Shown one piece after another: positions 1,274 through 33,319 of a DNA stretch of 64,000 nucleotides (position 1 is its first letter; the number at the start of each line of letters is the position of its first letter). Source of the stretch: Gammaproteobacteria bacterium (lineage in GTDB: Bacteria > Pseudomonadota > Gammaproteobacteria > Arenicellales > Poriferihabitantaceae); contig VYFG01000124.1 in NCBI GenBank assembly GCA_009842505.1, forward strand, positions 1 to 64,000, in the 5' to 3' direction. A model generated the notes under the pieces. The model ran no database searches, was not told the origin of the DNA, and was given only the letters and a program-made list of their open reading frames with translations. The position numbers were made by a program, and so were the translations under genes.

Positions 1274-1297
1274 GAATTCGACGAATCGTCCCGGCAG

Positions 1298-2956: not shown

Positions 2957-3211
2957 GTCCGTGGTCCGGGCCCCAGCGACACGGAATGCCTGCGACGCGT
3001 TCGGAACCGCCCCGAACGGGGACGGAAAACTGTTGCCTCACTGTCCTGGAAGAACACTTTGCGACACCATGGCATCACCAATTTTCAAACAACTCGGCAT
3101 ACTATTTCGCCGAGAGGCCAGTTCAGGCGCCACAACGAACAGGCAATCATCGACCTTGGGTGACATGCTGGCAGACACCGGTTCTATGGAGAACGGGAGG
3201 GGACGTACATC

Positions 3212-4870: not shown

Positions 4871-5626
4871 ATGACTGCCGTCGCCGACTCTCCTCTGTTC
4901 TTCCATGACCCCCTGGCGCCGGACATGCGGGAACTTACGCTGTCGGGCGACGAGGCGGTTCATGCGGGCCAGTCGAGAAGACTCGGCCCGGGCGACGGGA
5001 TCGCCCTGACCAACGGACGCGGCCTGCTGGGGATAGGGACTGTGGAGGAAGTGACCCGGCAACCGCCATCCATGCGGGTATCCATGGAACACTGCAGCCT
5101 TGTCCGTGCGCCGGCAACCGAGGTGGTTCTTGCCACCGCTCTGCCGAAGGGTGATCGGCTCAACACACTGCTGGACATGGCGACCCAGCTGGGAATGCAG
5201 GTATTCCAGCCGCTGGACTGCGTACGCAGCGTGGTGCGCCATCAGCAGAAAATGACCGACCGCTTTCGACGTGTCGTCATGAGCGCGGCGAAACAGTGCC
5301 GCCAGACCAGATTCCCCCGTATCGAGGAGCCGAGGTCCGTGCAGCAGCTCCTGGCGGGGAACGGTCACGATGCCGCCGTGATCTACGGCGAACCGTCAGG
5401 CGATTCGCTTTGTCTGGCCGCTCAGGGCATAATCCGCAAGCCCCCGAGAGTGGTGATCGTCGTCGGCCCCGAGGGCGGGTTCGATGATGGGGAGTTGGAG
5501 CTGCTTCGGAACTGCTCCGCCATGGCGGTGAACTGCGGTTCACTGATACTGCGCACTGAAACCGCCGCGCTGGCACTGCTCACCACTGCCGATCAGTGGC
5601 TGTCCACCCTGCCGGAGACTGCCTGA
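4871..5626 (+). CDS. rsmE: 16S rRNA (uracil-1498-N3)-methyltransferase RsmE
   Basis: 251 residues, normal for RsmE. The enzyme methylates N3 of U1498 in 16S rRNA using S-adenosylmethionine. The N-terminal PUA-like RNA-binding part covers roughly residues 8-75, followed by the SPOUT methyltransferase domain. Recognisable features are the [17 protein letters not shown] helix, the [12 protein letters not shown] segment, the knot loop [15 protein letters not shown] (about 195-209) and the C-terminal [13 protein letters not shown] that closes the SAM pocket. ATG 4871 gives the expected N-terminus. orn follows within a few bases to about 30, depending on its start, so the two are probably cotranscribed. 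Confidence 0.95.
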
Positions 5627-5654
5627 TCCCTTGACAACGGCAACCTGTATACAA

Positions 5655-6212
5655 ATGCCTTCCCAGAACCTAGTATGGATCGATCTTGAGATGACCGGAC
5701 TGTCTCCGGAGACCGACGTCATCATCGAGATTGCCAGCATCGTCACGGATTCGCAACTCAACATCCTTGACGAGGGACCGGTCATCGCGGTGAGCCAGCC
5801 ACTGACCCGTCTGGCACAGATGAACGAGTGGAACACCCGTACACACACCGAAAGCGGCCTGGTCAACCGGGTCAAGGAATCCACCATCAGTACCGCCGAG
5901 GCCGAAAGCCAGACCCTGGAATTCATCCGCGGCCTCGTCCCGGGGAACCATTCACCCCTGTGCGGAAACTCGATCTGCCAGGACAGACGGTTCCTGGCCC
6001 GCCATATGCCCAGGCTGGAAGCCTATCTGCATTACCGTAACCTGGACGTCAGCAGCATCAAGGAACTGGTGAGCCGGTGGCGGCCAGAACTGCTCAACGG
6101 GTTCAGCAAGCGCAATACCCATCGCGCCATGGAAGACATCCGTGAATCCATCGAGGAATTGAAGTACTACCGCAGAACCTTTCTGCGCGCGCCATTGCCT
6201 GCCACCGGCTGA
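5655..6212 (+). CDS. orn: Oligoribonuclease Orn
   Basis: 185 residues from ATG 5655. A TTG at 5631 would add eight residues, but Orn proteins normally begin just before the [12 protein letters not shown] motif. Orn is the DEDDh 3'-5' exonuclease that clears 2-5-nt RNA and the pGpG left by c-di-GMP breakdown. Visible catalytic motifs: WIDLE (Asp/Glu of Exo I), the [16 protein letters not shown] region (Exo II) and a late [20 protein letters not shown] (His and Asp of Exo III). Directly downstream of rsmE on the same strand; no strong ribosome binding site is visible, consistent with translational coupling. Confidence 0.95.
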
Positions 6213-6301
6213 TCCCCGGTCAGGAGCCCTCGTGGCGACGGCTCCCGCCCTGATCAACTACCAACGAAGTACCGTCAGCAGGAATCCGGAGTGTCTCTTG
6301 C

Positions 6302-6331
6302 ATTGAACCGGCATACGGACGACGGTTCAAT
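6302..6331. terminator. Inverted repeat between convergent orn and AOR genes
   Basis: ATTGAACCG (6302-6310) and its perfect complement CGGTTCAAT (6323-6331) form a 9-bp stem with a 12-base loop, exactly where the plus-strand orn unit and the minus-strand oxidoreductase gene converge. No T-run follows on either strand, so it may be a weak bidirectional terminator or an mRNA-end hairpin. Confidence 0.45.
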
Positions 6332-6340
6332 CGTTCCCTG

Positions 6341-8317
6341 TCATCGAAAACCGAGGGCCCGGGCTATTTTCTGCAGCACGCCCTGAGGCGGTGGCGGATC
6401 CTGGGTCGCGGGCGTCTCGTGGGCGGTTGCCGGGGCATCGGCCGTCTCCCGGGATTCCTCCGCGGACGTGCCGGAATCGGGCTCGCCGCGGTCGAACCGG
6501 ATCCCCAGCTCACCGAGCTTGCCCGCTGTCGGCACCCCGCCGGAATCCCAGCCCCGGAGTTCGTAGTACTCGGGAATCAACACCCCGAGTTCCACCACAT
6601 TGCCGTTGCCGAAGCCTCCGGGTACCGGGTCCTTCAGCATCCGCGGCGGCAGCGTATCGTCCGCGGACGTCAGACCTGCGGAGAGGTTGAACAACCGCTC
6701 TAGGTTCCAGATGCGCTCCCCGGTACTGCGCAGCCTCTCTTCATCCCAGTCCCCTGGACAGATCGCACTGATCATCCGGGAAAAGTGCTCGTATCCCCAC
6801 ACCCCGGTGGTGAACAGGCAAAGCCCCGTGGAGTCCACCATGGCAACGAAATCCTGGGAAGTGCGCGCGGCCTCCGCCTTGCCGCCGGTTCCCGGGTCCG
6901 CCATGTCCTGCTCGAAGGTGTCATGCCTGAGATGACAGGCGCCTCGATTGCTGGTGGCGTAGCCAAGCCCCATACCCTGCATGGCGCGCCCGTCGTATCC
7001 CGCGAATTCCTGGCCCTTGGCAACCATGGCGAGTTCCGGATGGCCGTACTTTTCGCAAAGGAGCCTGGAACCCAGACCCAGTTCACGGCCGAAACCTTCC
7101 TGCTTGCCGGTCTTTTCGGACATTACCACCAGGGCCTCGGCACTGCCGAAGCTGAGGTCAATGCCGTCCGTCTGTTCCCTGGTGATGGCGCCGATCTCGT
7201 AAAGCTCCATGGCCGCCGCCAGTGTGACCCCGAATGAGATCGGGTCCATCCCGTGCTCGTTCATCATGAACCCGGCGAACGTCAGTGCATCGAGGTCGTC
7301 CACCCTAACCACGGGGCCAAAGGCGAAGGTGGTCTCGTATTCCAGGCCGCCGGACGTGCCCCAGTATTCCGGTCGGTCGCGGACGCTGAAGTGTTCGGGA
7401 TCGATGCGGGCAAGCCGGCCGCAACCAATGGTGCACCCGAAGCAGGCGGCATTCCGGACGAGGTTGCGATGGCCGTTCCGGTTTTTCACCGTCACCGCCT
7501 CATGATTGATCCTGGAAGCACCATCGAAAGATACCTTGCGGAAGTTCTCTGTCGGCAGTCCCCCGAATTCCTGCATGCTGTCCAGCATCGCGTGGGTGCC
7601 GTAGCGCATCAGTCCCCGGCGGGCACTACTGCGGTTCATCTCCTCGTTGACGGTGCGGACCACTTCCATGAAGGCCTTCGCGTTATCCTCCTGAACGCCC
7701 ACCGTGCCGCGTGCCGCGATTGCCTTGAGGTTCTTGCTGCCCATGACTGCCCCGACACCGGACCTTCCTGCAGCCCGGTGAAGATCGTTCACCACGCATG
7801 CGAAACGCACGCCCTGTTCGCCGGAGACGCCAATGGCAGCAACTTTGGTCAGGGGATCCTGCGTTTTCTTGTGTATCCACTCATCGGCCTGCCAGACCGA
7901 TTTTCCCCAGATCTCATCCGCCGGCAGTACCCGGACATCATCATCCCGGATGTCCAGGTAAACCGGTGCCGGCGAGCGGCCGGTGATGATCAGCAGGTCG
8001 TAGCCCGCATACTTGAGTTCGGCACCGAACTTGCCCCCGGAATTGGATGCCGCGATCGCGCCGGTCAAGGGGCCCTTGGTCACCACGGTATAGCGTCCGC
8101 TGGTGGAGGCCATGGTTCCGGTCAGGGGGCCGGTGGCGAAAATCAGGACGTTGTCCGGTCCCATGGGATCCGCCGCCGGGTCCATTTCCTCCCACAGATA
8201 ACGCGTGGCAAGACCCCGGCTGCCCAGATACTGTTCGGCCCATTCCATGTTCAGTGGTTCGATGGATGTGGTCCCGGCGCTGAGATCGACACGCAGAATG
8301 TTCTTTTGCCAACTCAT
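6341..8317 (-). CDS. Aldehyde:ferredoxin oxidoreductase (tungsten AOR family)
   Basis: 658 residues. AOR-family enzymes oxidise aldehydes to acids (or reduce acids) with a tungsten bis-pterin and a [4Fe-4S] cluster, using ferredoxin or a similar carrier. Cluster ligands are visible as Cys292-x2-Cys295-x3-Cys299 (ACFGCTIGCG) and Cys500 (DSTGLC), spaced much as in the Pyrococcus AOR. N-terminal domain 1 has ATGPLTGT, SGRYTVVTKGPLTGA and GGKFGAELKYAGYD. Strong ribosome binding site (AAGGAGAG) before the ATG. About 45 extra acidic, Pro/Thr-rich residues follow the catalytic part and end in a short basic amphipathic segment (GVLQKIARALGFR), which is unusual. It lies downstream of hrcA and DUF1285. 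No tungsten-transport or ferredoxin gene is adjacent; the substrate is unknown. Confidence 0.92.
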   Translation of the reverse strand: MSWQKNILRVDLSAGTTSIEPLNMEWAEQYLGSRGLATRYLWEEMDPAADPMGPDNVLIFATGPLTGTMASTSGRYTVVTKGPLTGAIAASNSGGKFGAELKYAGYDLLIITGRSPAPVYLDIRDDDVRVLPADEIWGKSVWQADEWIHKKTQDPLTKVAAIGVSGEQGVRFACVVNDLHRAAGRSGVGAVMGSKNLKAIAARGTVGVQEDNAKAFMEVVRTVNEEMNRSSARRGLMRYGTHAMLDSMQEFGGLPTENFRKVSFDGASRINHEAVTVKNRNGHRNLVRNAACFGCTIGCGRLARIDPEHFSVRDRPEYWGTSGGLEYETTFAFGPVVRVDDLDALTFAGFMMNEHGMDPISFGVTLAAAMELYEIGAITREQTDGIDLSFGSAEALVVMSEKTGKQEGFGRELGLGSRLLCEKYGHPELAMVAKGQEFAGYDGRAMQGMGLGYATSNRGACHLRHDTFEQDMADPGTGGKAEAARTSQDFVAMVDSTGLCLFTTGVWGYEHFSRMISAICPGDWDEERLRSTGERIWNLERLFNLSAGLTSADDTLPPRMLKDPVPGGFGNGNVVELGVLIPEYYELRGWDSGGVPTAGKLGELGIRFDRGEPDSGTSAEESRETADAPATAHETPATQDPPPPQGVLQKIARALGFR

Positions 8318-8521
8318 GGGTTCTCTCCTTTAGCGGTATATATAGATGATCTATTGTGGTTTTTCCGGCGGACCTGCCCAGTGCCGGCATCCGGTCCGGG
8401 CCGCCGCCCGGACGGCGTCAGTCCGGCGGATCTCCGCCCACGGGATAATGCGGGATTTTGCCCGGATTTTCCAGATGGGGATTTCACTGTAAGCGCGCGG
8501 AAGGAACCGCCCGGCCCCCGG

Positions 8522-9076
8522 CTACATCAGCGGAAAGAATACACCTCCGCTGCGCACACCGTACACTTCACTGCCGGGCAACTCCCGCTCGGCCATTTCC
8601 GCCAGGTGATAGTAGGCGGAACGCTTCAGGCGGGCCTTCAGGCCGTCCCGGATCAGGACCACGGGGTCCGGCTCGCCGGTCTTCGGGTCGATTCTCGGAT
8701 CCAGGGGATGGTCGCGGTCCAGGGGAATGGTCTCATCCATGTTCGTGCGAAACCAGATGCGGCGGCCGTCATGCCCGCCTTCCACGGACACCTCCACAAC
8801 CTGGAAAGGCGTATCCTCCACACGGATCCGGTAGCCAACCGTCGGGGTGATCAGAAAGAAGTCGCCGTCCCGGCGCGCCAGCACGGTGGAGAACAGCTTG
8901 ACCAGTTCATGGCGCCCGATGACGCCGCCCTCGTGAATCCAGCTGCCGTCGGCCCGGATCTCCAGGTCGAAATCAACCATCCTTTCCGGATGCCAGGTCT
9001 GCACCGGGGGACGGCGAAAGGGCCTGACCTCGTCGAACAGCCGGTCTAGTGTCCCACGGTCAATGCAGTCGGACAT
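8522..9076 (-). CDS. DUF1285 domain protein
   Basis: 184 residues covering a complete DUF1285 protein, a proteobacterial family without a proven function. Recognisable parts: the PPVQTWHPE segment near the start, DFDLEIRADGSWIHEGGVIGR, LVKLFSTVLARRDGDFFLITPTVGYRIRVEDTPF, and RDGLKARLKRSAYYHLAEMA near the end. No signal peptide or membrane segment, so cytosolic. It begins only 22 bases after the hrcA stop on the same strand, suggesting cotranscription; the AOR gene follows after about 200 bases and may have its own promoter. Confidence 0.85.
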   Translation of the reverse strand: MSDCIDRGTLDRLFDEVRPFRRPPVQTWHPERMVDFDLEIRADGSWIHEGGVIGRHELVKLFSTVLARRDGDFFLITPTVGYRIRVEDTPFQVVEVSVEGGHDGRRIWFRTNMDETIPLDRDHPLDPRIDPKTGEPDPVVLIRDGLKARLKRSAYYHLAEMAERELPGSEVYGVRSGGVFFPLM

Positions 9077-9098
9077 GCAGCGCTCGCTACAGACCGGC

Positions 9099-10190
9099 TT
9101 AGTGGGTGCCGTGATGGCTCAGGGCGCTGCCCAGCAGACGGGCAGTGATGTCCACTGCGGAGATCACCTCGTCGTAGTGCATCCGTGTCGGGCCGATCAC
9201 GCCCAGCACTCCGACCCGCTGGTGGTCCACCTCGTAGGGTGCGGCGATCACGCTGCAATCCTCCAGGATCTTGTACCCGGACTCTTCCCCGATGAATATG
9301 TGGACACCGGACGTATCCATGCTCTTTTGCAGGAGATCGTAGAGCACCTGCTTGGTCTTGAACGTGTCGAAAAGCCTCTTGATCTTTTCCAGTTCGGCAA
9401 AATCCGGCACCGTCAGGAGATTGTTCTCCCCGCTCACTAGCACCGACTCCTGGTCGGTATCGGCATCCGCGCCGAACAGCTGGCCGGCCATCCGGATCGC
9501 GGTACGCATTTCACGGTGCATGCTCCGGTGATCGTTCCGCATGTGCACGGCCAGGTCCAGGCGGACATCATCCAGGATCCAGTTGGCATAGGTGTCGTTG
9601 AAAAAGTTGGCGGCTTCCACCAGTTCGCTGTCGGAGTACTCACGCCTGGTCGAGATCACCTGATTCTGGACCTGGCCGTCTGCCGTGATCAGGATCGCCA
9701 GCACCCGCTGCTGGGAGAGGTTCAGGAACTCGATCTGGCGGAACTTGCTGCCGGATTTGCTGGGGGTCGAGACCACCCCGGCAAACGAAGTGATCTGTGA
9801 CAGCATTTCCGTGGCGCTGGTGAGTATGCCCCGGAAGTCGGAAACCCCCTGAAGGGCAGTCCGGAAATCGGCACGAAGGTCGGCCAGGGAATCGTGGTTG
9901 ATCTGGCCGGAGCGCATCATGCAGTTGATGAACAACCGGTAGCCCTTGCGCGTCGGCACCCTGCCCGAGGAGGTGTGCGGTGCCTGTATCAGCCCCAGAT
10001 CCTCCAGATCGGACATCACGTTGCGGATGGTGGCCGGGCTGAGCGACAGGGCGGTTTCCCGGGACAGGGTCCGCGAACCCACCGGCACCCCGTCGCTGAT
10101 ATACCGCCCGATGAGCCCGAGGAGTACCTGTTCAGCACGGGGGCTCAATTCGATTCGCTCTTGCAGCTTTTCAGTACCGGATGCGGGCAT
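9099..10190 (-). CDS. hrcA: Heat-inducible transcription repressor HrcA
   Basis: 363 residues from ATG 10190, chosen because GGAAGA lies nine bases upstream; frames opening at 10214 or 10244 have weaker signals. HrcA represses heat-shock genes by binding the CIRCE inverted repeat and is kept active by GroEL. The N-terminal winged helix reads GLIGRYISDGVPVGSRTL and SLSPATIRNVMSDLEDLGLIQAPHTSSGRVPT, followed by the GAF-like middle (SFAGVVSTPSKSG, QIEFLNLSQQRVLAILI) and C-terminal VLGVIGPTRMHYDEVI. In many bacteria hrcA heads the grpE-dnaK-dnaJ operon; here those genes lie 26 kb away and hrcA is divergent from nadK. I saw no CIRCE repeat in its own upstream region. Confidence 0.95.
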   Translation of the reverse strand: MPASGTEKLQERIELSPRAEQVLLGLIGRYISDGVPVGSRTLSRETALSLSPATIRNVMSDLEDLGLIQAPHTSSGRVPTRKGYRLFINCMMRSGQINHDSLADLRADFRTALQGVSDFRGILTSATEMLSQITSFAGVVSTPSKSGSKFRQIEFLNLSQQRVLAILITADGQVQNQVISTRREYSDSELVEAANFFNDTYANWILDDVRLDLAVHMRNDHRSMHREMRTAIRMAGQLFGADADTDQESVLVSGENNLLTVPDFAELEKIKRLFDTFKTKQVLYDLLQKSMDTSGVHIFIGEESGYKILEDCSVIAAPYEVDHQRVGVLGVIGPTRMHYDEVISAVDITARLLGSALSHHGTH

Positions 10191-10374
10191 CGTTGAAATT
10201 CTTCCGGGTACCATATGATGTCGTACCTGAAAGAGAAATAGCAACCCGGCTCCGGGGTGTCAAGATTGTTTTTTGTCCGGTTGCGCATATACTGTGGTCC
10301 GTTCCAGGGATCAGTTTCACGGAATCTGCATAATTTTCTACTATAAGAATAAAAAATAACTATCTGTATTTATT

Positions 10375-11235
10375 TTGAAAATATCCAAAATCGGATTGTT
10401 CGGAAAGTTTCGCGACTCCAGCGTGGCCCCGGTCATGGATCGGGTGCGGGCACTCCTGGAGGCGCGCGGCGTACGGGTGCTGCTGGGCAGCACCACTTCC
10501 GCGGAGATTGACGGAGAACGGATAGACGAACAGCACCACCCCCTGGACCAGTTGATCGACGTCGCCATGGTGGTAGGGGGGGACGGCACCATGCTGAACG
10601 CCGCCAGGATCCTCTGTACCCACGGTGTACCCATGGTCGGCGTGAATCTCGGCAGGCTCGGCTTTCTCACCGACATCCCCCAGGGCGACCTGGAAACCAA
10701 CCTGGATGCCCTGCTGGACGGCCGCTTCAGCGTGGAAAACCGGACGCTGCTGAAGACAACGGTGCTCAAGGATGATGTATCCATCTACGAAGGCGTCAGC
10801 CTGAATGATGCCGTGATCGCCAAGGGCAATACCGGCCGGCTGATCGAATTCGAAACCAGGATCGACGGTCGTTTCGTGAGCCATACCCGCAGCGACGGCA
10901 TCATCATCGCCACACCGACGGGCTCTACCGCCTATTCCCTGTCCTCCGGCGGGCCCATTGTATATCCAACGCTCTCGGTCCTGAGCATCGCCCCGATCTG
11001 TCCGCACACCCTGAGCAACCGCCCCATTATCATCTCGGACGACGCCGTGGTGGACATCTGTGCCTTCAGAACCCCGGAAACCCGCGCCATCCTGTCACTG
11101 GACGGTCTGATCGTGCATCAGCTTTCCGGGGAAGAGACCCTTCGCCTGACCAGGGCGGACAGGAAGTTGTCCATGATCCGGATCGACCCGCACGACCATT
11201 TCGAAGTACTGAGAACCAAGCTCGGCTGGGGCTGA
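10375..11235 (+). CDS. nadK: NAD kinase
   Basis: 286 residues. It phosphorylates NAD to NADP, the cell's only route to NADP. Motifs: the GGDGTML signature (about residues 68-74), GVNLGRLGFLTDI, the NDAVIAKGNTGRLIEFE segment that binds the ribose, and SDGIIIATPTGSTAYSLSSGGPIV. The start is TTG at 10375, which gives the usual KISKIGLFGK N-terminus; no nearby ATG is in frame. The upstream 50 bases are very AT-rich, as expected for a promoter. The stop overlaps the recN start (TGATG at 11233-11237), so the two are translationally coupled. The gene is divergent from hrcA. Confidence 0.95.
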   Translation: MKISKIGLFGKFRDSSVAPVMDRVRALLEARGVRVLLGSTTSAEIDGERIDEQHHPLDQLIDVAMVVGGDGTMLNAARILCTHGVPMVGVNLGRLGFLTDIPQGDLETNLDALLDGRFSVENRTLLKTTVLKDDVSIYEGVSLNDAVIAKGNTGRLIEFETRIDGRFVSHTRSDGIIIATPTGSTAYSLSSGGPIVYPTLSVLSIAPICPHTLSNRPIIISDDAVVDICAFRTPETRAILSLDGLIVHQLSGEETLRLTRADRKLSMIRIDPHDHFEVLRTKLGWG

Positions 11236-12917
11236 TGTTCGACTGGTTGTCCATCCGCCACTTCGCCATCGCATCGGAAGTGGAGTTGGAGTTCGGTGCG
11301 GGATTCACCGCCATCACCGGCGAAACGGGTTCCGGCAAGTCGCTGCTCGTGGATGCGCTGGGCATCCTGCTGGGTGGACGGGGGGAACAGGGACTGATCC
11401 AGCAAGGCAAGGAGGAAGCCGAGATACGGGGCGGATTCAGCCTTCCGGACGGCAGCCCGGTTCTCGCCTGGCTCCGGGAAAGGGATCTGCAGGGCGGGGA
11501 TGAACTGGTTCTGCGGCGAATCCTCCGGCGTGACCGCCCCGGGCGGAGTTTCATCAACGGCAACCCGGTCAACGTGTCCCAGTTGCGGGACCTGGGGGAT
11601 CGGCTGGTGGAAATCCACGGCCAGCAGGAACACCATTCACTGCTCCAGAGAAGCGTGCAGCAGGCACTGCTGGATGAGGCTGCGGGCAATTCCGGGCTGC
11701 TGGACGAACTCGCCACCGCCTGGGACGGCCTGCGGGATATCGGGAAGCGGCTTGCGGAAATCAGTCGGGAACAGGAAAGCGTACTGGAACGCATCGAACT
11801 GCTCCAGTTCCAGCTGTCCGAACTCGATCGGCTGGATCCGGGGGACGACGAATGGGAGTCGTTGTCGCAGAAACAAAGAAGACTCGGCCACGCGGCCGAA
11901 CTCCTGGATGCGATGCATGCAGCCGTGGCACAGCTGCACGATGATGACCTGTCGGTTCACGGGCAACTGAGCCGGATTGCCGGACGCCTGCGCCAACTCG
12001 AACAGTACGATCCGGCCACCGGCGAAATCGCCGCGCTGCTGGAGGAGGCCGAAATCAACGTCGGCGAATCCGTCACCCGGCTCAGGGAGTCTCTCGACCA
12101 GATTGACCCGGGGGTGGATGAACTGCAACAGGTGGAGGAGCGGATGTCCGCCTGGCATGCAATGGCGCGGAAGTACCGGGTGCTCCCCGGCGAACTGCCG
12201 GGCATGAGAGCCGGCCTTGGCGATTCGCTGGAACAGCTGAAAAACCCGCAGGCGGAGCGGGAAAGGCTCGAGAGGCAGCAAGAGGAGGCAGGGCAGGTGT
12301 GCGAGCGGCTGGCGGATGCGGTCAGCGGGAACCGCCGCAAGGCCGCCTCGGCCCTGGCCCGGAAAATCACGGCCGCGATGCGGGAACTCGGCATGCCCGG
12401 CGGCCGTCTGGAAATTGTCCTTGAGCCCGTGAAGCCGGAACCACTGTCCCGCTCGGGCCGGGAAACCGTGACCTTCCTCGTGTCCGCGAATGCGGGGCAG
12501 GAACTGCAACCCCTGTCCAGGGTCGCCTCCGGCGGGGAAATCTCCCGCATTTCCCTGGCCATCCAGGTGATCCTGGCGGATGCCGCCGATGTGCCTACGA
12601 TGATATTCGACGAGGTGGACGTCGGCATCGGCGGAACCGTGGCCAATGTCGTGGGCGAGCGCCTGCGCCAACTCGGAAAATCCTGTCAGGTGATCAGTGT
12701 CACCCATCTCCCCCAGGTCGCTTCGCGGGCCAATCGTCATATTTCAGTCACCAAGAGGGAGCGAAAAAATATCGTGGACGTGGAACTCAGCCTGCTGGAG
12801 CGGCCCGAAAGAATCGTGGAAATTGCCCGCATGTCCGGGACCGACACACCAAGCCAGGCCTCCCGGGACCATGCCAGGCAGATGCTGGATTCGGGCGACC
12901 CGGAACGCCCGGGCTGA
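11235..12917 (+). CDS. recN: DNA repair protein RecN
   Basis: 560 residues, the usual length. RecN is an SMC-like ATPase acting early in recombinational double-strand-break repair. Walker A GETGSGKS lies near residues 31-38, followed by the LGGRGE and GQQEHHSLL segments. A coiled-coil centre rich in Glu/Gln/Leu spans roughly residues 165-370. The ABC signature SRVASGGEISRISLAIQ and Walker B MIFDEVDVGIGG lie near 430-470, with VTHLPQVASRA after them. Its ATG overlaps the nadK stop. In E. coli the order is nadK-recN-bamE; here a GNAT gene sits between recN and bamE. No LexA box is evident because the promoter is shared upstream. Confidence 0.96.
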   Translation: MFDWLSIRHFAIASEVELEFGAGFTAITGETGSGKSLLVDALGILLGGRGEQGLIQQGKEEAEIRGGFSLPDGSPVLAWLRERDLQGGDELVLRRILRRDRPGRSFINGNPVNVSQLRDLGDRLVEIHGQQEHHSLLQRSVQQALLDEAAGNSGLLDELATAWDGLRDIGKRLAEISREQESVLERIELLQFQLSELDRLDPGDDEWESLSQKQRRLGHAAELLDAMHAAVAQLHDDDLSVHGQLSRIAGRLRQLEQYDPATGEIAALLEEAEINVGESVTRLRESLDQIDPGVDELQQVEERMSAWHAMARKYRVLPGELPGMRAGLGDSLEQLKNPQAERERLERQQEEAGQVCERLADAVSGNRRKAASALARKITAAMRELGMPGGRLEIVLEPVKPEPLSRSGRETVTFLVSANAGQELQPLSRVASGGEISRISLAIQVILADAADVPTMIFDEVDVGIGGTVANVVGERLRQLGKSCQVISVTHLPQVASRANRHISVTKRERKNIVDVELSLLERPERIVEIARMSGTDTPSQASRDHARQMLDSGDPERPG

Positions 12918-12954
12918 CTGCCCATTGCTTCGCTGCTGGGGTATCATTCGCCCG

Positions 12955-13473
12955 ATGAACGAAACCGCACAAATCATCCGGGATCCCGCGCTGGCGCCCG
13001 CCGCCGTCGGCGCCATACGGCAAGCCAGGCTGGACGATGTCACGGACATCCATCGCCTGCTCACCCACTACGCTTCGCTGGAAAGACTGCTGCCCCGCGC
13101 CGAGCCGGACATCTACCAGTCGTTGCGGGAGTTTGTCGTGGCCGAGCGCGATAGCCGCGTGGTCGGCTGCGCCTCACTGCAGATATTCACCCGCGATCTC
13201 GGCGAGGTGCGCAGCCTGGCAGTGGACCCCGACGCCACCGGAATGCGGATCGGTTCGCGCCTCGTGCGGGCGCTTGAAGAAGACGCGCGCCGGCTGGGAC
13301 TTTCCCGGCTGATGGCGCTGACCTACGAAGTCAGCTTTTTCAACAGAATGGGTTATGAAGTGGTGGAAATGAAAGTCCTTCCCGAAAAGGTCTGGGGCGC
13401 ATGCATCAACTGCCCGAAATTCCGCAATTGTGATGAAATAGCGGTTCTGAAATACCTGTCTGCCACGGAATGA
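12955..13473 (+). CDS. GNAT N-acetyltransferase, short NAGS-like
   Basis: 172 residues from ATG 12955, about 35 bases after recN. The GNAT fold is clear: IRQARLDDVTDIHRLL at the start, then EVRSLAVDPDATGMRIGSRLVRALEEDARRLG, which holds the acetyl-CoA loop (R/Q-x-x-G-x-G/A-like MRIGS). The C-terminal KVWGACINCPKFRNCDEIAVL, with three cysteines, matches the stand-alone short N-acetylglutamate synthase-like group (ArgA type, first step of arginine synthesis). The exact substrate is inference. The stop overlaps bamE (ATGA at 13470-13473). Its insertion between recN and bamE is a departure from the common order. Confidence 0.8.
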   Translation: MNETAQIIRDPALAPAAVGAIRQARLDDVTDIHRLLTHYASLERLLPRAEPDIYQSLREFVVAERDSRVVGCASLQIFTRDLGEVRSLAVDPDATGMRIGSRLVRALEEDARRLGLSRLMALTYEVSFFNRMGYEVVEMKVLPEKVWGACINCPKFRNCDEIAVLKYLSATE

Positions 13474-13829
13474 AACCGCCCGCCCTCGAAATGCCGAAAC
13501 GTGTCATCCGAACCATTGTCCCCCTGGCCCTGGTCATGGTGCTGGGAGCAGCGGTTTCCGCATGCGTCTACCGGATCGACGTCCAGCAGGGAAACGAGAT
13601 CACCGCAGACATGATATCCAAACTGAATCCTGGCATGACCCGCCGTCAGGTCGTCAAGATCCTGGGATATCCCCTGGTCAGCGATCCGTTCAACCGTAAC
13701 CGGTGGGATTACTTCTATTCCTACAAGTCCGGCAAGACCCGGGAAATGACCCGCCGGTCCGCCAAGCTCCTGTTTGAAGGGGACTACCTGACCTCGGTGG
13801 AAAGCGATATCGCCCCGGAAACCGAATAG
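13470..13829 (+). CDS. bamE: Outer membrane assembly lipoprotein BamE
   Basis: 119 residues. BamE (SmpA/OmlA) is a small lipoprotein of the Bam complex that inserts beta-barrel proteins into the outer membrane. The signal peptide is followed by a lipobox-like AVSAC, with the modified Cys about residue 32. The mature part carries the family core: QGNEITADMISKLNPGMTRRQV, KILGYPLVSDPFNRNRWDYFYSYK and the strand LLFEGDYLTSVESD. It is coupled to the upstream GNAT gene by a 4-base overlap and ends the nadK-recN-GNAT-bamE unit. Confidence 0.94.
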   Translation: MKPPALEMPKRVIRTIVPLALVMVLGAAVSACVYRIDVQQGNEITADMISKLNPGMTRRQVVKILGYPLVSDPFNRNRWDYFYSYKSGKTREMTRRSAKLLFEGDYLTSVESDIAPETE

Positions 13830-13890
13830 GCCGGAAACACAATGATGCCGGGCCGGTCCGCGCGCGACCCGGCCCCGCCGGTAATTTCTC

Positions 13891-14667
13891 CTAGCCGTCC
13901 GCGCTTTGCAGTCCGGCTTCGGCCAGAAGCTTCTCGGGGGCAACGTATCCGCCCAGCACCCGCCCGTCGTCCAGCATGATGAACGGTGTGCCCTGCACCC
14001 CCAGCCGGAAGCCGAGCTGATAGTGCTCGTCAACGGGATTCTCGCAGACCTTCCGTTCGATCTCCTCCCCGGCCTTGGCCCTGGTCATGGCGTCTCCCTG
14101 GTCCGCCGCGCACCAGACCGCCACCGCCTCGCGGTAGCTGTCTGAATCGAGACCGGCCCGGGGCCACATCATGTAACGGACTTTGAGTCCACCTTCCTTC
14201 AGTGCCGGGACATCACGATGAAATTTCTGGCACCAGCCGCAATCCGTGTCAGTGAACACCGTGATATAGCGCTTGCCCTCCGGATCACCCATGATGATCA
14301 TCCGGCTCTCGGGTATCCCGTCCAGTTCCTGGATCGCAAGCTGCTGCTCCCTGTTCTGTCGCTCCCGGGTCCAGCTGACACGCCGGTCAGTGTCATACAC
14401 CTCGCCGATCAGCACGAATCCGGCATGGCTGTAGACATACAAGTGCTCGTTGCCGATGCGCACATGGTAGACCCCCTGCATGTCGGTCGGCTCCACCGAA
14501 GTGATGGTCGCCCCATCGGGAATGATTTTCAGCAGGTTCTCGCGAACCGCATCCATTTCAACAGTCACCCGGTCCTGGGCGTTCACAACCGGTGGGGCGA
14601 TCGCCAGGGCGGCGGCAAGCATCACCACTCTGGTCAGTGCCCGGTCAGGGCGGAAATTTCGTGTCAT
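13891..14667 (-). CDS. Periplasmic thiol:disulfide interchange protein, DsbC type
   Basis: 258 residues from ATG 14667, chosen for the AAGGAGAG just upstream and because a signal peptide (residues 1-30, ending VVNA) begins there. DsbC isomerises wrong disulfides in the periplasm and is reduced by DsbD. The N-terminal dimerisation part covers about residues 31-100, and the thioredoxin fold carries the active site Cys143-Gly-Trp-Cys146 (E. coli DsbC has CGYC). A second Cys pair (VWC and KVC) matches the structural disulfide of DsbC, and a cis-Pro sits in QGTPFIML. It follows the nucleosidase-like gene on the same strand after about 190 bases. Confidence 0.93.
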   Translation of the reverse strand: MTRNFRPDRALTRVVMLAAALAIAPPVVNAQDRVTVEMDAVRENLLKIIPDGATITSVEPTDMQGVYHVRIGNEHLYVYSHAGFVLIGEVYDTDRRVSWTRERQNREQQLAIQELDGIPESRMIIMGDPEGKRYITVFTDTDCGWCQKFHRDVPALKEGGLKVRYMMWPRAGLDSDSYREAVAVWCAADQGDAMTRAKAGEEIERKVCENPVDEHYQLGFRLGVQGTPFIMLDDGRVLGGYVAPEKLLAEAGLQSADG

Positions 14668-14855
14668 TGCACTCTCCTTCGAATGTGGTCTGTCGGAAGC
14701 TTGGATGCCCCGCAATCCTGAAAGTTCATGAATCAGGGAGGGTGATCGGCCTGCCGAGTAACCCGGCATTATCCATGAACGGGACGGATAACCCAAGACC
14801 TGCCGCACCGACCCGTGGGGTCCGGCGGTCCCGGACACCCGCATGCCACCCGGTG

Positions 14856-15485
14856 TCATGCCCCAAGCAGCAGCTCGCCAAGACCGGCAATCCGGTCCCT
14901 GTTACCGGCCAGCAGTCCCCTGCCCAACCGCACACCCTCCCGGATGGAAAGCCCCGGGCCATCCGCCACCAGTTTGACGATGGCCAAGCGTGAGAGCCGG
15001 TTTTCCGATGCGAGAAACCCGGCGATCCCCGCGCCCTCCATGTCATACAGCCAGGGACGGGCAAACGCGGTTTCCGGCGTATCCACGGTCCGCAGGCAGC
15101 CTCCGGTCGCGATCACCGGACCGGACCTGTCCCCGCCGGCGGGCGGTTGCATCGTGAGTGTCCAGCTTTGCGCCCGGTAATGCACCCGGTGTATCCACAC
15201 CAGCATGCCAGGCGCGTATGCTGCCTGCCCGACACCGCGCGGGTCGACCGCACTGCCTCCGTATCCCGCAACGCCGAAATTCAGCCAGGTATCCTCTGGT
15301 GTGGCGGGTCCGGCAGCAAAAAGGCGTCCGAGCGTTGCCCGGCATTGGTCCACGCCCTGCCCCGTGAGGACAAGGCGGACCCCGTCTCCGGAGTACAGAT
15401 TGGAATCATGCCTGCACCTGTCGAGGCCGAAATGTTCCACGAAGGGCATGCCCTCGGCAAGATGGGCGCAAAGGACGGTCAGCAT
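14856..15485 (-). CDS. Nucleoside phosphorylase/hydrolase-like protein
   Basis: 209 residues from ATG 15485, which directly follows the glycosyltransferase stop; a longer frame from 15596 would overlap that gene. The sequence looks like the phosphorylase superfamily (PNP/MTA-SAH nucleosidase): an early VLTGQGVDQCRATLGRL, then TWLNFGVAGYGG and the late PWLYDMEGAGIAGF, which resembles the MEGA/MEAAA substrate-binding motif. The fold call is moderate, and the substrate (MTA, SAH, futalosine or a hopanoid precursor) cannot be told. It is probably cotranscribed with the GT2 gene upstream. Confidence 0.65.
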   Translation of the reverse strand: MLTVLCAHLAEGMPFVEHFGLDRCRHDSNLYSGDGVRLVLTGQGVDQCRATLGRLFAAGPATPEDTWLNFGVAGYGGSAVDPRGVGQAAYAPGMLVWIHRVHYRAQSWTLTMQPPAGGDRSGPVIATGGCLRTVDTPETAFARPWLYDMEGAGIAGFLASENRLSRLAIVKLVADGPGLSIREGVRLGRGLLAGNRDRIAGLGELLLGA

Positions 15486-15490
15486 CCCGG

Positions 15491-16327
15491 TCAGCAGGCC
15501 GGCTGGCCGGCACTCCACCGGTTCGAGATCCGGCGATAGTGTCCGGCGCCCTCGACATTGCCGCGGCGTTCCATGCCCTGGACCAGGATTTCGCATTTGC
15601 GCCGCAGGGTGTCGATGCAGGCCCCGCGGTCCCCCGCATCCAGCGTGTCCCGCAGCAGCAGCTTGTCCAGGGAATGGACCCTGAACCGATCCATACCCCA
15701 GTGCCGCCTGGACAGCTGGTCATGGTGACCGCCGTACTTGATGACACAGGGTTCCTTCACCAGCCCGGCACGGTAACGCTGAAAGACGCGTAGCCACAGG
15801 TCATAGTCCTCGCAGGCAGGCAGATCCGGATCGAACAACCCCGCATCCGCCAGCACTGAGCCGTGCAGCAGCACGGATGACGGGGACACGCAGCAAAGCG
15901 GCAGACACTGGCGGAATATCCTGCCTTCCGGCTTTGCATGTCTTCGACCTGGGTTCACCCTGCGGCCGTTCCTGATCCAGATCTCGTCGGTGTGGCAGAC
16001 CCTGACTTCCGGATGTCCGGCAAGGAGCTTTGCCTGTAATTCGAGCTTGCGGGGGAGCCATTCGTCGTCAGAATCCAGCAAGGCGATCCATTCTCCCGTG
16101 GCAGCGTTGATGCCCCGGTTGCGCGCCGCGCTGACACCCGCATTGGCCTGGGGCAGGATCGTTACCGACGGAAATGTCCGCGCCAGGAGTGGCGCCGTTC
16201 CGTCATCGGACCCGTCGTCCACCACGATGATTTCCCGGGGCGCCAGGGTCTGGCCGAATACCGAACGGATGGCCCTTGAGACCAGGGCGGCCCGGTTGTG
16301 GGTGGGTATGACGACGCTGACATCCAC
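15491..16327 (-). CDS. Family 2 glycosyltransferase
   Basis: 278 residues from a GTG start. The GT-A fold is plain: SVVIPTHNRAALVSRAIRSVFGQ at the start, EIIVVDDGSDDGT (nucleotide-sugar binding), NAGVSAARNRGINAATGEWIALLDSDDEW with the DxD-like metal site, and a later ACEDYDLWLR acceptor-side motif (ED). It transfers a sugar from a nucleotide sugar to an unknown acceptor, such as a glycan or lipid carrier. No membrane segment is evident. It lies downstream of mdh and just upstream of the nucleosidase-like gene; no other surface-glycan genes are nearby. Confidence 0.88.
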   Translation of the reverse strand: MDVSVVIPTHNRAALVSRAIRSVFGQTLAPREIIVVDDGSDDGTAPLLARTFPSVTILPQANAGVSAARNRGINAATGEWIALLDSDDEWLPRKLELQAKLLAGHPEVRVCHTDEIWIRNGRRVNPGRRHAKPEGRIFRQCLPLCCVSPSSVLLHGSVLADAGLFDPDLPACEDYDLWLRVFQRYRAGLVKEPCVIKYGGHHDQLSRRHWGMDRFRVHSLDKLLLRDTLDAGDRGACIDTLRRKCEILVQGMERRGNVEGAGHYRRISNRWSAGQPAC

Positions 16328-28166: not shown

Positions 28167-28997
28167 GTGCCCCAATTCGTCCTCATCATCCTTGCCCTGG
28201 CGGCTTACCTGGTCACCTCCGCCTGGTTCTGGCGCCGGGTTCATGCCAGTCCAGGTGCCGGTACGGGAACCGGCGGAGCAAACGGAAGCAACCTGTATCC
28301 ACTGCTGGTCGGCTGGGCGGCCGCCGTACTGCACGCGTGGCTGCTTGCACGGGGAATGCTGTCCGCCTCGGCTCTCAATCTGTCCCTGGGCTACGTGTTT
28401 TCCCTGGTGACACTCATGACAGTTTTCGTATTCCTGCTGTCAACCCTTGCCCGGGACATGTTCAACCTGGGGCTGTTCGTGATGCCGGTCGGACTCCTGG
28501 GGTTGCTCGTGGGCCTGTTCCTCACCGGTCAGCCGGTGCCGGTGGAAAACCCGTCCGCACTGCAGTGGTGGCATCTGGGGATTGCGCTGGTGGCATTCGG
28601 TTTTCTCTGCATCGCCGCCGCCCAGGCACTGCTGCTGTACCTTCAGGACAGGCATCTTCACAGCCATCGGCCGGGCAACCTGCTGCCCTCCCTGCCACCC
28701 ATACAGACCATGGAACACAACCTGTTCTGGCTGACCATGATCGGCGTCATCCTGCTCACCATGAACCTGGTGGTCGGCATGGTCTACCTGTATCACCAGC
28801 AGGGACGGACCCTGGCGTTCAATCACCATATCCTGCTGTCCTTCCTCGCCTGGCTGGGATTCGCCGGTCTGCTCTACGGACACAGGATTTACGGGTGGCG
28901 CGGCACCGTGGCTGCCCGCTGGACGCTGGCGGCTTTCGGGGTCCTGATCCTGGCATATTTCGGTACCCGGTTCGTCACCTCGGTGGTTCTGTCCTGA
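28167..28997 (+). CDS. ypjD: YpjD/CcsA-like cytochrome c assembly-family membrane protein
   Basis: 276 residues from GTG 28167. About eight hydrophobic helices cover most of the protein. The conserved Trp/His features of the CcsA-like family are visible: the HSHRPGNLLPSLPPIQTMEHNLFWLTMIGVILLT region and HHILLSFLAWLGFAGLLYGHRIYGWRG with His in the membrane helices. YpjD (CorE-like) proteins are found beside ffh in many gammaproteobacteria; the exact role is unproven, with haem handling inferred from the family. Divergent from ffh. Confidence 0.88.
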   Translation: MPQFVLIILALAAYLVTSAWFWRRVHASPGAGTGTGGANGSNLYPLLVGWAAAVLHAWLLARGMLSASALNLSLGYVFSLVTLMTVFVFLLSTLARDMFNLGLFVMPVGLLGLLVGLFLTGQPVPVENPSALQWWHLGIALVAFGFLCIAAAQALLLYLQDRHLHSHRPGNLLPSLPPIQTMEHNLFWLTMIGVILLTMNLVVGMVYLYHQQGRTLAFNHHILLSFLAWLGFAGLLYGHRIYGWRGTVAARWTLAAFGVLILAYFGTRFVTSVVLS

Positions 28998-29226
28998 AGC
29001 CCGTCCCCGGAAGGTTCACGGTACCCCTGCAGGTGCCGGGATCCACGGCAAGGACCTGGCCCGACTGATGGCATGGCATGGGATCGGGGTGCGCACGCGG
29101 GACACCTACGAAATCAACCGACTCGACGAGGACTATTTAGACCAGAAGCACTGCAGTCCATGCGTCCTTCGTGGAACGAGACCCGTGCCCGCGCCGCCGA
29201 CTTGCCGATGAGCGGCGCGATGCATC
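28998..29226. other. Intergenic stretch holding a restriction-enzyme remnant
   Basis: Between the ypjD-like stop and the convergent end of the nuclease-helicase gene. Apart from the Mrr-like fragment listed separately, I see no gene, and no clear terminator. Confidence 0.5.
29035..29139 (+). pseudogene. Remnant of an Mrr-type restriction endonuclease (C-terminus only)
   Basis: Reading in frame from 29035 gives AGIHGKDLARLMAWHGIGV and then RTRDTYEINRLDEDYL, which closely resembles the C-terminal end of Mrr-family restriction endonucleases (the LIDG-x-x-LA-x-LM-x-x-x-x-GVGV... Y-x-x-x-x-D-D-Y/F segment). No start codon, catalytic PD-(D/E)xK core or DNA-binding domain lies upstream, because the conserved ypjD-like gene ends only 38 bases before, and after the DEDY motif the frame continues into unrelated sequence. 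It is therefore a decayed fragment. Mrr enzymes cut methylated DNA and belong to defence islands; the next gene is an accessory nuclease-helicase. Confidence 0.6.
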
Positions 29227-32200
29227 CTATGCGAAAGCATCCGGAAGCGCGCAAAGCGCGTTCACCAAACGCATCTGCTCTACGGTAGTGCAGTTCGTGT
29301 GCATGAGCCGTGGCGATGCGAAAACCAGGCTCAGCCCCTTTCCCCTGCTCACGGCAACATTCAACCGTTCCCGGGACAACAGGAAATCCAGTCCCCGGGT
29401 AGTCTCCTCGGAAGACGAGGCGGTCATCGAGACTAGGGCAACCGGTGCTTCCTGCCCCTGGAACTTGTCGACGGTACCGACACGGATACCGGACAGGGCA
29501 TCGGACAATGCGTTAACCTGCGCATTATAGGGAGCAACCACGATGATATCGCTCATCTGGATTGGCCGGCTAATTCCCTTACCATCTGTCCATGTGCCGT
29601 CGAGCAGGCTTTCGATCGTATCGGAAACTGCTTCCACCTCTTCCGGGCAGACCTGGGCGCAGCCTTCATGAGCGACAGACACACGCCAGGCACCGCATCG
29701 GGGCAGGTTCCTGGCCTCTATGGACTGAAAGGCAGTCGAGGAATGGCTATTCAGGCGATCTTCGTAGAACTGGGAGGAAACATAGGCACACAAATCGGGA
29801 TGCATTCTCCAGGTTTCCGGCAGGAATATGCCACGCGCCGGGTCGACATTCCGGCCTTCGCCCAGAATCCAGTCGAGACAGGAACGGTTGGCCGGATAGG
29901 GATGCGCTCCCTGGAGGACTTGCGGGAGCTGCCGGGGATCGCCGACGAGAACAAGGTTGTCCGCCGCATTGGACATCGCGACCAGGTTCGCCAAGGAAAC
30001 CTGGCCCGCCTCATCAACGAAGAGATAATCAAACGCCCCCTCCAGCTCGTCCCTCGAAAACAGCCATGCCGTGCCTCCGACAACATGGGCAGTTTCGATG
30101 GCGGGCGCATTGTTATCAGTCACACAGTTGATTGCCGAGCGGACTTCGCCCGGAAGATCCGTATCGCGCGAGATCTTGTGGGTGATGCGCACATCCCCGG
30201 CGGAAAGACCGGTATCGTCCGTTCGAAGTGCACGGGCACATCCCATCAGTACGTTGCGGATGGCCTCGTGGCTGTTGGAGGACACCGCAATGCGCTTGCC
30301 GTCCCGAACCAGCGCGAGAATCGTCCGTACCGTGACATGGGTCTTGCCGGTGCCGGGCGGCCCCTGGACAGGCAGAACAGTCTTGTCCATCGCCCGCACG
30401 GCCCGGATCATGCCATCGATCGTCCCGTCACCTTCTTCCAGCGGCAGTGGCGACGGACCGTGGAATCGGGGAGGGTTCTGCGAGAGTAGATCTTCCGCGG
30501 CTGTATTGGATTTGGACCGGCATTGATCATCCACCACTTTCCTGATGGCGGCTGGAATCGAACCCGGGTGCAGGGCAAAACCGGGAAGAAGGTCCAGTGC
30601 GTCCGGCATACAGGTACCCCAACTGGGCCCCATCTTCAGGGAGACCCGCCTGCGGCTTCGGTCCAGGTCGATAATTCCGACCGTTGCGAATCCGTCCCCG
30701 TCCACGAAGAGGGCATCTACCCCCTTTCGCAATTTTGTCTCCTGGGGCGGATAGGAATAGTCACGCCCCACTGATCGTTTCACCGGATACTCACCCCCAT
30801 CCGCAACCAGTCCGGCCAGACAATCCATGTCGTCGCTCAATTCCTCGAAGTCTTTCGCGGCAGAGTCGAATACGGCCCAGGCCTGGGGTTTGCTTTCGCG
30901 CCAATGGAATACCCCCAGGTCGTAGAGCGCCTGCTGACGATCCTGAGTTAGGTCAGAGTCTGCGAGGAATCTGGCGAGCTCGTCATTTTGGGCCTGCTGC
31001 GACTCAGATTTCTCGGTTTCTCCCTGGCCGATCTCAAGCCAGGGCCCCTCGGGACGAATCTTGAGCAGCCAGTTGCGCAATTGCTCAAGAGAAATGCAAT
31101 CGAGACGGTTGTACTCTTCGATTTCCGAGAGAATCCCATCATCACCGGACTCTCTCCACTTCTCGTAGGCGACGATAGAGCCACCCGCAGTCACTACCTC
31201 TCCCTCACGTTTCATATCGTAAAACACCTCCATGTCCTTCAGGGAATAGGAGGGCTCGGATGCAAATATTCCCCCTCGGACCACCGCATACAGGTCTACG
31301 AACCGCCGCTCCCGCAACCAACGATCCAACTGTGTTTCCCCTACTCCATGCCTCGTGGCGAGCTTCCGAAGGGCAGTGATTTCGTAGGGTGCGTAATGGT
31401 ATATGTGCGCGCGCGGAAATTGCCGAAGACGTTCTCCAAACCGGTCAATGAGGGAAGCCAGGGCTTTCTTTTCCTCTACGAGGTTATGCGACCACAAGGC
31501 GGCGAATTCCTCTCCATCCCAAATGCCGTGAAGGTATTCGAGACCCTCGGAACCGGTCTCTGCGTAGAAAGGGTCTCCCTCGATATCATAGAAGAGATCC
31601 CCGGAATCCGGGCGCGGCAACAGGTCGAAGCCCTTGCCGAGGACATGGGCACGCAGTTCATAGGCTGGATCACCTGCCTTTCGGGCAGTCTGCAGCCGCG
31701 CCTGGGACCGCAGCTTCCCGGCCGTTGAATCCGCCAGCCTGCGTACCCGCCCACTGTGCTCGGCCAGGGAGCCCATGGTCCTGATGCCGAAACTCTCAAG
31801 CTTGGCAACCTGACTTCGGGTGATGCCGGCAGTGAGATAAAGGCTGTCAGTCTCCCGCCATTCGGTGGCACATGCCTCTCGCCAGCGGCAGAGTTCGCAA
31901 AGTGAACAGGGAACCGGGCGGGTACTGGGCGGGTTTTGGACAAACCCCTCGAGGCGATCACGCAACAGGCGCACATAATCGGAATACTCCGATAGCCGGA
32001 AGCTGACCCGTTCTCCTGTGCCGAGTTGCACGTGGGCATATTCGGGCGCCCTGCCCTGGAGATCCGCGAGTAGATCCGAGTAGAGTGACAGTTGAAGTAC
32101 GTGGCTCGGAGCGGGTTTGCGCTTGAGCTTGGTATCCACAACCTCGTAGGAGAACGTGCCAAGCCCGGATGGAATCGGCACGCGCTCAAGGAAGTCCGCG

Positions 32201-32535
32201 TAGCCACCCCACATCCCACCAGCGAGCGCGCCCTGAAAGACGATATCCGACCCGGAACCAAGTGCATTCCTGGTGGCGTTTACCGACTCTGCAAAGGGCA
32301 CACCGTCAGTTTCAATTCGAATGACATGCTTGTGTTCAGCCTCGAGTGTTTGAAGATACTCGGCTTCATGCCGATCACCGTGTCGTTGCAGCAAGGCTGA
32401 ATCTTCACTGTCATCAACAGGAACAGGCGCCTTACCCTGAAGATAAGCAAGGTCAAGTCGAACCGAATGCGGACATGCCGTGAACCGCATGAGATCAGTT
32501 GCTGATAACCTGACCCCTACTCCATCATGTCTCAT
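29227..32535 (-). CDS. TM0106-type RecB-like nuclease fused to SF1 helicase
   Basis: 1102 residues with three recognisable parts. Residues about 10-225: RecB/Cas4-like nuclease with Asp114 and the VVDTK motif (Asp134, Lys136), plus Cys21 and Cys210/213/216/222, likely iron-sulfur ligands. Residues about 312-500: RNase H-like exonuclease of the YprB type, starting FYDIEGDPF (Asp317, Glu319) and ending with EYNRLDCISLEQL. Residues about 700-1090: superfamily 1 DNA2/UPF1-like helicase with Walker A GPPGTGKTHV, DEAGQ Walker B, VGDPRQLPQV, ETWRMHPDL and VDKFQGQEAPVALVSMT plus LLSRERLNVAVSRGK. Cytosolic. It is an accessory gene between housekeeping blocks, next to an Mrr remnant; by eye its G+C is a little lower than its neighbours. 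Role in repair or phage defence is inference. Confidence 0.88.
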   Translation of the reverse strand: MRHDGVGVRLSATDLMRFTACPHSVRLDLAYLQGKAPVPVDDSEDSALLQRHGDRHEAEYLQTLEAEHKHVIRIETDGVPFAESVNATRNALGSGSDIVFQGALAGGMWGGYADFLERVPIPSGLGTFSYEVVDTKLKRKPAPSHVLQLSLYSDLLADLQGRAPEYAHVQLGTGERVSFRLSEYSDYVRLLRDRLEGFVQNPPSTRPVPCSLCELCRWREACATEWRETDSLYLTAGITRSQVAKLESFGIRTMGSLAEHSGRVRRLADSTAGKLRSQARLQTARKAGDPAYELRAHVLGKGFDLLPRPDSGDLFYDIEGDPFYAETGSEGLEYLHGIWDGEEFAALWSHNLVEEKKALASLIDRFGERLRQFPRAHIYHYAPYEITALRKLATRHGVGETQLDRWLRERRFVDLYAVVRGGIFASEPSYSLKDMEVFYDMKREGEVVTAGGSIVAYEKWRESGDDGILSEIEEYNRLDCISLEQLRNWLLKIRPEGPWLEIGQGETEKSESQQAQNDELARFLADSDLTQDRQQALYDLGVFHWRESKPQAWAVFDSAAKDFEELSDDMDCLAGLVADGGEYPVKRSVGRDYSYPPQETKLRKGVDALFVDGDGFATVGIIDLDRSRRRVSLKMGPSWGTCMPDALDLLPGFALHPGSIPAAIRKVVDDQCRSKSNTAAEDLLSQNPPRFHGPSPLPLEEGDGTIDGMIRAVRAMDKTVLPVQGPPGTGKTHVTVRTILALVRDGKRIAVSSNSHEAIRNVLMGCARALRTDDTGLSAGDVRITHKISRDTDLPGEVRSAINCVTDNNAPAIETAHVVGGTAWLFSRDELEGAFDYLFVDEAGQVSLANLVAMSNAADNLVLVGDPRQLPQVLQGAHPYPANRSCLDWILGEGRNVDPARGIFLPETWRMHPDLCAYVSSQFYEDRLNSHSSTAFQSIEARNLPRCGAWRVSVAHEGCAQVCPEEVEAVSDTIESLLDGTWTDGKGISRPIQMSDIIVVAPYNAQVNALSDALSGIRVGTVDKFQGQEAPVALVSMTASSSEETTRGLDFLLSRERLNVAVSRGKGLSLVFASPRLMHTNCTTVEQMRLVNALCALPDAFA

Positions 32536-32629: not shown

Positions 32630-33319
32630 TCAGGACTCCGGCGTGCCTGCTCCGCCGGACATTACTTCCGCCACCCGGTTACGCACGTAGGCCACCTCCA
32701 GTCCAAGCGGTGAGACCCGTTCTGCCGGCCCGACTGATGCAGCAAGCTGGGCAATCTGCAGTGCCTCGGGCAGGTGTTCGCCCCGGATTTCCAGGGGCCT
32801 GCCCGCCAGTTCGACCGGCATGGAATCCGGATAGGCTGTCCAGCCGTTGCCGATACCCATCGGCGTATCCGGCAGCGACAGGGATGCCAGCTCCGATTCG
32901 AGACGGCACGGATCATCCACATGCGGCTGAACGATGCACTCGCCTGCCCGGTAAACGCCCCAGTAGACCTGATTCATCCTGGCATCCAGTGCCGGGATTA
33001 CTGTTTGCTGCGGATAGGCACCGCTCAATGCAGCCAGCGAACCGATTCCCACCACGGGCAATCCGGCAGCATAGGCCAGCCCCTGGGCAATGCCGACACC
33101 CACACGGAGACCGGTAAAGGACCCGGGTCCCACGTCCACGGCAACGAGATCAAGGTCGCCCAAAGTCATCTCCCGGTTGCACAACAGCTCCCGGATCATG
33201 CCGAGGATCAGGCTGGAATGCCTGCCGGAAGAATCCTGCATGCGCTGGCCGTTGCCGGAACCAGTGCACAGGGCCACCGAACAGCGGGCGGTTGCGGTGT
33301 CAATGGCCAGGACGTTCAC
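32630..33319 (-). CDS. tsaB: tRNA threonylcarbamoyladenosine biosynthesis protein TsaB
   Basis: 229 residues from a GTG start overlapping the yoaA stop (GTGA). TsaB partners TsaD in forming t6A37 on ANN-decoding tRNAs. The ASKHA-fold N-terminus reads MNVLAIDTATARCSVAL, then SSLILGMIRELL and the hallmark VAVDVGPGSFTGLRVGVGIAQGLAYA. Lacks the metal-binding His motif of TsaD, as TsaB should. The tsaB-yoaA pairing is the one in E. coli. Confidence 0.95.
   Translation of the reverse strand: MNVLAIDTATARCSVALCTGSGNGQRMQDSSGRHSSLILGMIRELLCNREMTLGDLDLVAVDVGPGSFTGLRVGVGIAQGLAYAAGLPVVGIGSLAALSGAYPQQTVIPALDARMNQVYWGVYRAGECIVQPHVDDPCRLESELASLSLPDTPMGIGNGWTAYPDSMPVELAGRPLEIRGEHLPEALQIAQLAASVGPAERVSPLGLEVAYVRNRVAEVMSGGAGTPES

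Follow-up and report, generated by a model that had tools for sequence, protein, structure and literature searches.

In the interval between the ypjD-like and tsaB-like genes of the window (the whole stretch of 64,000 nucleotides analysed here), two small ancestral genes have likely given way to acquired defence DNA, which comprises a stand-alone Dna2-like nuclease-helicase gene and a leftover of an mrr-mmeI restriction operon (Table 1). Housekeeping blocks border the interval on both sides, as the original prediction had stated; ffh and ypjD lie to the left, and tsaB, yoaA, dnaJ, and dnaK to the right. The nuclease-helicase gene is convergent with the mrr part of the leftover. The leftover and the enzyme look like two unrelated cargoes that may have arrived separately, and are best treated separately.

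Table 1. Features of the ypjD-tsaB interval and its flanks (positions are those of the window)
Feature	Position	Strand	Remarks
ypjD-like gene	28167..28997	+	conserved left flank; adjoins tsaB in relatives
Spacer between ypjD and the restriction remnant	28998..29040		no match among the loci compared (DNA comparison)
Mrr-like type IV REase, C-terminal end, 35 codons	29041..29145	+	5′ part gone; profile, protein and DNA matches
MmeI-like type IIG restriction-methyltransferase, first ~25 codons	29160..29235	+	frameshifted, cut off; DNA alignment with contig C64
Nuclease-helicase, 1102 aa, intact	29227..32535	-	TM0106 RecB/Cas4-like nuclease, RNase_H_2 and SF1 helicase
RecB/Cas4-like nuclease, residues 11-230	31846..32505	-	invariant catalytic residues; Cas4 profile matches
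RNase H-fold domain, DEDD-type, residues 314-490	31066..31596	-	PF13482 2e-27; D317, E319, D479 invariant
SF1B Upf1/Dna2-like helicase, residues 711-1079	29299..30405	-	GPPGTGKT, DEAGQ, GDPRQLPQ, VGTVDKFQGQE, RLNVAVSR
tsaB-like gene	32630..33319	-	conserved right flank

The ypjD-tsaB interval was opened in 13 genomes, namely the window genome (G000) and 12 relatives. In the four congeners (G001, G002, G003, and G004), it holds a lipoprotein-like gene and a gene encoding a small secreted protein (YLT); the same two genes are found here in G010 and in G029, where a CNNM-type gene accompanies them, and the YLT gene is also found here in G013 and G024. Both genes therefore look ancestral to the interval. 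DNA homology to congener G004 stops at the ypjD stop codon (28997), neither small gene has a match within the window, and the YLT protein of G004 had no match in the window genome, although this is a weak test. The acquired DNA thus took the place of resident genes, and the interval carries acquired genes that the congeners lack.

The restriction remnant begins with a stretch whose 35-codon translation, IHGKDLARLMAWHGIGVRTRDTYEINRLDEDYLDQ, aligns with residues 282-315 of the 317-position PADLOC profile mREase_IV (E = 5.5e-4) and shows 63% amino acid identity over 38 aa (E = 6.8e-11) to a Mrr_cat protein encoded on contig C64 of the same genome. The core observation of the original prediction, that 35 codons from the C-terminal end of an Mrr enzyme are present, was therefore right, and the piece is a true Mrr remnant of a restriction locus; Pfam and NCBIfam searches with this piece alone gave no match, the piece being too short. 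The start codon and the Mrr_cat catalytic core are both absent, again as predicted, and the last 34 profile positions are all that remains. The remnant is larger than first reported, combining an mrr end with an mmeI start: positions 29056-29235 form one unbroken DNA alignment with C64 (182 bp at 84.6% identity; E = 4e-51 with the compared loci as database), where the counterpart spans the junction between the end of an mrr-like gene and the beginning of an MmeI-like type IIG gene. In the remnant, the mrr frame carries a 1-nt deletion downstream of the stretch listed in Table 1, and its usual TAG stop is now CAG; the mmeI frame opens with an ATG at 29160 and has its own 1-nt deletion after ~13 codons. 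The nuclease, methyltransferase, and target recognition domains of MmeI are absent from the remnant, which retains only the first ~25 codons, and an intact copy is present on C64. The restriction genes at the interval have been mostly deleted and are non-functional.

The mmeI stub also matches MmeI-like starts in G015 (79%) and G021 (73%) and a fragment in G023 (74%). Compared with C64, the mrr part of the remnant shows 13 differences at 90 sites, spread 3/3/7 across the codon positions; with this divergence, the remnant is no recent copy of C64. No mrr gene was present in the 1.5-kb flanks ahead of the MmeI-like genes of G015, G021, G033, G011, and G005; an mrr-mmeI junction was therefore observed in no genome but this one, which ties the remnant to a composite operon of the C64 type. 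On C64 itself (L078, positions 3-4755), an mrr-like gene that is nearly complete but truncated at the contig end and the MmeI-like type IIG gene are accompanied by genes for proteins of 270 aa and 164 aa. The MmeI-like enzyme encoded there is intact (932 aa), with the Pfam domains MmeI_N, hel, Mtase, TRD, and C and a PADLOC REase_MTase_IIG match of 1109 bits, while the 270-aa and 164-aa proteins belong to no Pfam or PADLOC family; the 164-aa protein resembles a PIN-type toxin by eye. A second Mrr C-terminus, also decayed-looking and with no intact frame seen upstream, is located at positions 1691-1813 of L079 (G020:C195). Short MmeI-like fragments, several of them with internal stops, are found in relatives as well (L181, G018:C10; L182, G023:C80; G020:C244; G011:C18), suggesting frequent turnover of such genes within the family.

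The nuclease-helicase gene is intact and encodes a Dna2-like enzyme with an extra RNase H-fold domain: its catalytic motifs are invariant and the best folds found with its structural model are those of Ighmbp2, Dna2, and Upf1. The protein matches TIGR03491 (TM0106 RecB-like nuclease) over profile positions 2-462 of 462 with 249.8 bits (cut-off 97.45), and, besides RNase_H_2 (2e-27), AAA_12 (7e-24) and AAA_11 (2e-19). In an alignment of 30 homologues, the PD-(D/E)XK and QxxxY motifs are intact, with D114, D134, K136, Q148, and Y152 invariant; the three RNase H-fold residues given in Table 1 and the cores of the helicase motifs are likewise invariant, and four cysteines (C21, C213, C216, and C222) are conserved at ≥90%. 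The AlphaFold2 model has a mean pLDDT of 88.7, and its top matches among solved structures are the three helicases named above; the match to Dna2 (5ean) has an E-value of 4e-25 over ~1100 columns, with a global TM of just 0.36. PADLOC matches to Mokosh MkoA/MkoC were set aside, as their best stretches (residues 899-1090) represent the helicase part common to Upf1-like helicases.

The distribution of this enzyme is patchy and discordant. Rather than being universally present at this place, the gene is found in none of the four congeners and in five of the 24 family genomes, where it occupies other places. At the protein level, the window enzyme is 79% and 83% identical to the copies in G018 and G020 of genus g8, while the housekeeping protein YoaA of these genomes is only 46-57% identical to that of the window, so the nuclease-helicase gene was acquired horizontally; its GC3 (0.64) is lower than that of neighbouring genes (0.71-0.81). 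The G018 copy adjoins an adenosylhomocysteinase-like (ahcY-like) gene, identified by eye, and the G020 copy adjoins McrC and the end of McrB, with McrC convergent to the nuclease-helicase gene. A FastTree phylogeny places the window copy with those of G020 and G018 (support 0.998-0.999), and copies from an alphaproteobacterial contig (L082; 73% identical to the window enzyme) and a gammaproteobacterial one (L083) join this group with support of 1.0. A transposase-like gene (IS1595-type, by eye) is located directly upstream of the nuclease-helicase gene on L082 (positions 52-657). The nuclease-helicase gene probably spreads horizontally as a single gene.

We also inspected the flanks of nuclease-helicase loci found in a scan of reference genomes, applying profile searches to the best 80 of at least 586 relatives. 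Among these best 80 loci, 39 have a WYL/WCX regulator as a neighbour, 24 McrB, 22 McrC, and 19 an unnamed protein of ~221 aa; the nearest WYL match is <1 kb away in 32 loci, as is the nearest McrB match in 21, and rarer neighbours include SbcD-like (5/80), SbcC-like (4/80), and sacsin-type (3/80) proteins. McrC occurs five times in 24 relatives, or ~1 per 15 Mb by our own rough estimate, and 22 occurrences in ~1 Mb of flank therefore represent a strong excess, although the 80 loci come from other taxa. A recurrent cassette, seen in L086-L145 (e.g., L088, positions 5740-16276), consists of the ~221-aa protein and the WYL regulator, a divergent nuclease-helicase gene, and then McrB/McrC; SbcD/SbcC-like genes take the place of McrB/McrC in L089, L092, L099, and L103. 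No defence partner, WYL included, adjoins the window copy, and no McrC was found in the whole assembly, so a defence role has to be drawn from relatives, mostly of distant clades. BrxR-type WYL regulators are known to occur with diverse defence systems (PMC9122601), and Cas4-like/UvrD helicase fusions are predicted defence components (PMC5704561). No functional study of TM0106 nuclease-helicases was found in the literature searched, and the titles and text passages covered contained no description of a McrBC/WYL/nuclease-helicase pairing. Taken by analogy with these loci, the nuclease-helicase probably has a defence (antiviral) function. We put forward more tentatively, as a possibility short of an even chance, that the family may represent an undescribed modular defence system, with a divergent WYL-domain regulator, often the ~221-aa protein, the Dna2-like nuclease-helicase as its constant part, and downstream partners that vary between McrB/McrC, SbcD/SbcC-like, and sacsin-type proteins, of which stand-alone copies, such as that of the window, would be spreading as single genes.

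Neighbourhoods of this kind could also mean that the nuclease-helicase is the survivor of a larger WYL-regulated nuclease-helicase/McrBC cassette and that the mrr-mmeI remnant is a scrap of the same island. The frequencies of WYL, McrB, and McrC among the best 80 of at least 586 relatives speak for such a cassette, as does the closest copy (G020) with its adjoining McrC/McrB. However, in the window's sub-clade, which has seven further members, McrBC is found only in G020 and L084, and WYL only in L084, the rest being stand-alone, so that a loss of partners at the window site need not be assumed; moreover, the interval holds no trace of WYL or McrBC, the McrC of G020 is convergent to the gene, and Mrr-MmeI is not among the recurrent neighbours in the best 80 of at least 586 relatives. 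We consider this survivor reading improbable. The claim that the site once held more defence genes can accordingly be kept for the mrr-mmeI operon only, and not for the nuclease-helicase, which looks complete and whose close relatives are mostly stand-alone. Somewhat less improbable, but still unlikely, is that the enzyme is a bacterial Dna2 with an accessory role in DNA repair, acting in recombination or end processing rather than in defence. A protein built in this way could work in DNA repair, the best folds are Dna2 and Upf1-like helicases, and some relatives have SbcD/SbcC-like neighbours; against this, the distribution is very patchy and horizontally mobile, and the gene often adjoins genes typical of defence loci, namely McrBC and WYL regulators (PMC9122601).

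The interval had further been proposed to be an integration hotspot, and we regard a true hotspot for defence islands as very unlikely. Cargo beyond the ancestral genes is present in only two of the 13 intervals (G000 and G005), the other 11 having ancestral genes only or being nearly empty; no clear flanking repeats were seen as insertion scars, the short direct and inverted repeats present being chance-like, and there is no integrase gene within the interval. What favours a hotspot is the different cargo of 5.5 kb at ypjD-tsaB in G005 (L068, positions 1284-6419), which includes a MotA/ExbB-like protein with weak ZorA similarity. The other three of the four genes in that cargo encode an FGE-sulfatase-like protein and two proteins without a family. 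Gaps of ~2.4 kb in G026 and G035, both outside the 13 opened intervals, fit the CNNM arrangement. A chimaeric assembly or a chance match as the source of the restriction remnant is scarcely credible: the assembly is fragmented (157 contigs), but 182 bp at 85% cannot be chance, the divergence from C64 speaks against a misjoin via shared k-mers, and each junction sits deep inside a 68-kb contig.

Under the preferred reading, acquired DNA took the place of the ancestral pair at ypjD-tsaB, and the mrr-mmeI operon was largely deleted to a leftover of 180-195 bp, with a relative still present on C64; a single step or a series of steps may lie behind the insertion and deletion, whose order is conjectural. 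In its putative antiviral role, the nuclease-helicase would most likely load on foreign DNA where its ends are exposed or damaged, the enzyme's Upf1/Dna2-like motor would unwind this DNA, and its Cas4/RecB-like and DEDD-type nuclease sites would degrade the strands.

Turnover of defence genes at single intervals is well known, and the present case fits such turnover rather than a new kind of system. Its value as an example is that it is small and clear, with the lost ancestral genes, the scrap, its same-genome relative, and the incoming gene all nameable; its wider value lies in the enzyme family, whose neighbourhoods point to phage defence. Among known restriction systems, the remnant resembles Mrr type IV REases in matching the last 34 positions of the family, but differs in having no start, catalytic core, or normal stop and in being frameshifted; likewise, it shares with MmeI-like type IIG/IIL enzymes, by DNA homology, the start codon and first ~25 codons, but is a frameshifted stub only. 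The nuclease-helicase corresponds to the TM0106 family (TIGR03491) fused to an SF1 helicase, with a full-length domain match, all motifs, and no notable difference, the window copy having no adjoining partner gene. With eukaryotic Dna2 it shares an N-terminal RecB/Cas4-type nuclease with four conserved cysteines, followed in the same chain by a Upf1-like SF1B helicase at the C-terminus; however, sequence identity is only ~15%, and the window enzyme has an RNase H-fold DEDD-type domain between nuclease and helicase. The UvrD-Cas4 fusions found in defence loci (Hudaiberdiev et al. 2017, PMC5704561) are similar in combining a Cas4-like nuclease with an SF1 helicase, in their patchy occurrence, and in their location near restriction and WYL genes, whereas the helicase of the window enzyme is Upf1/Dna2-like rather than UvrD-like and is joined by an RNase H-like domain.
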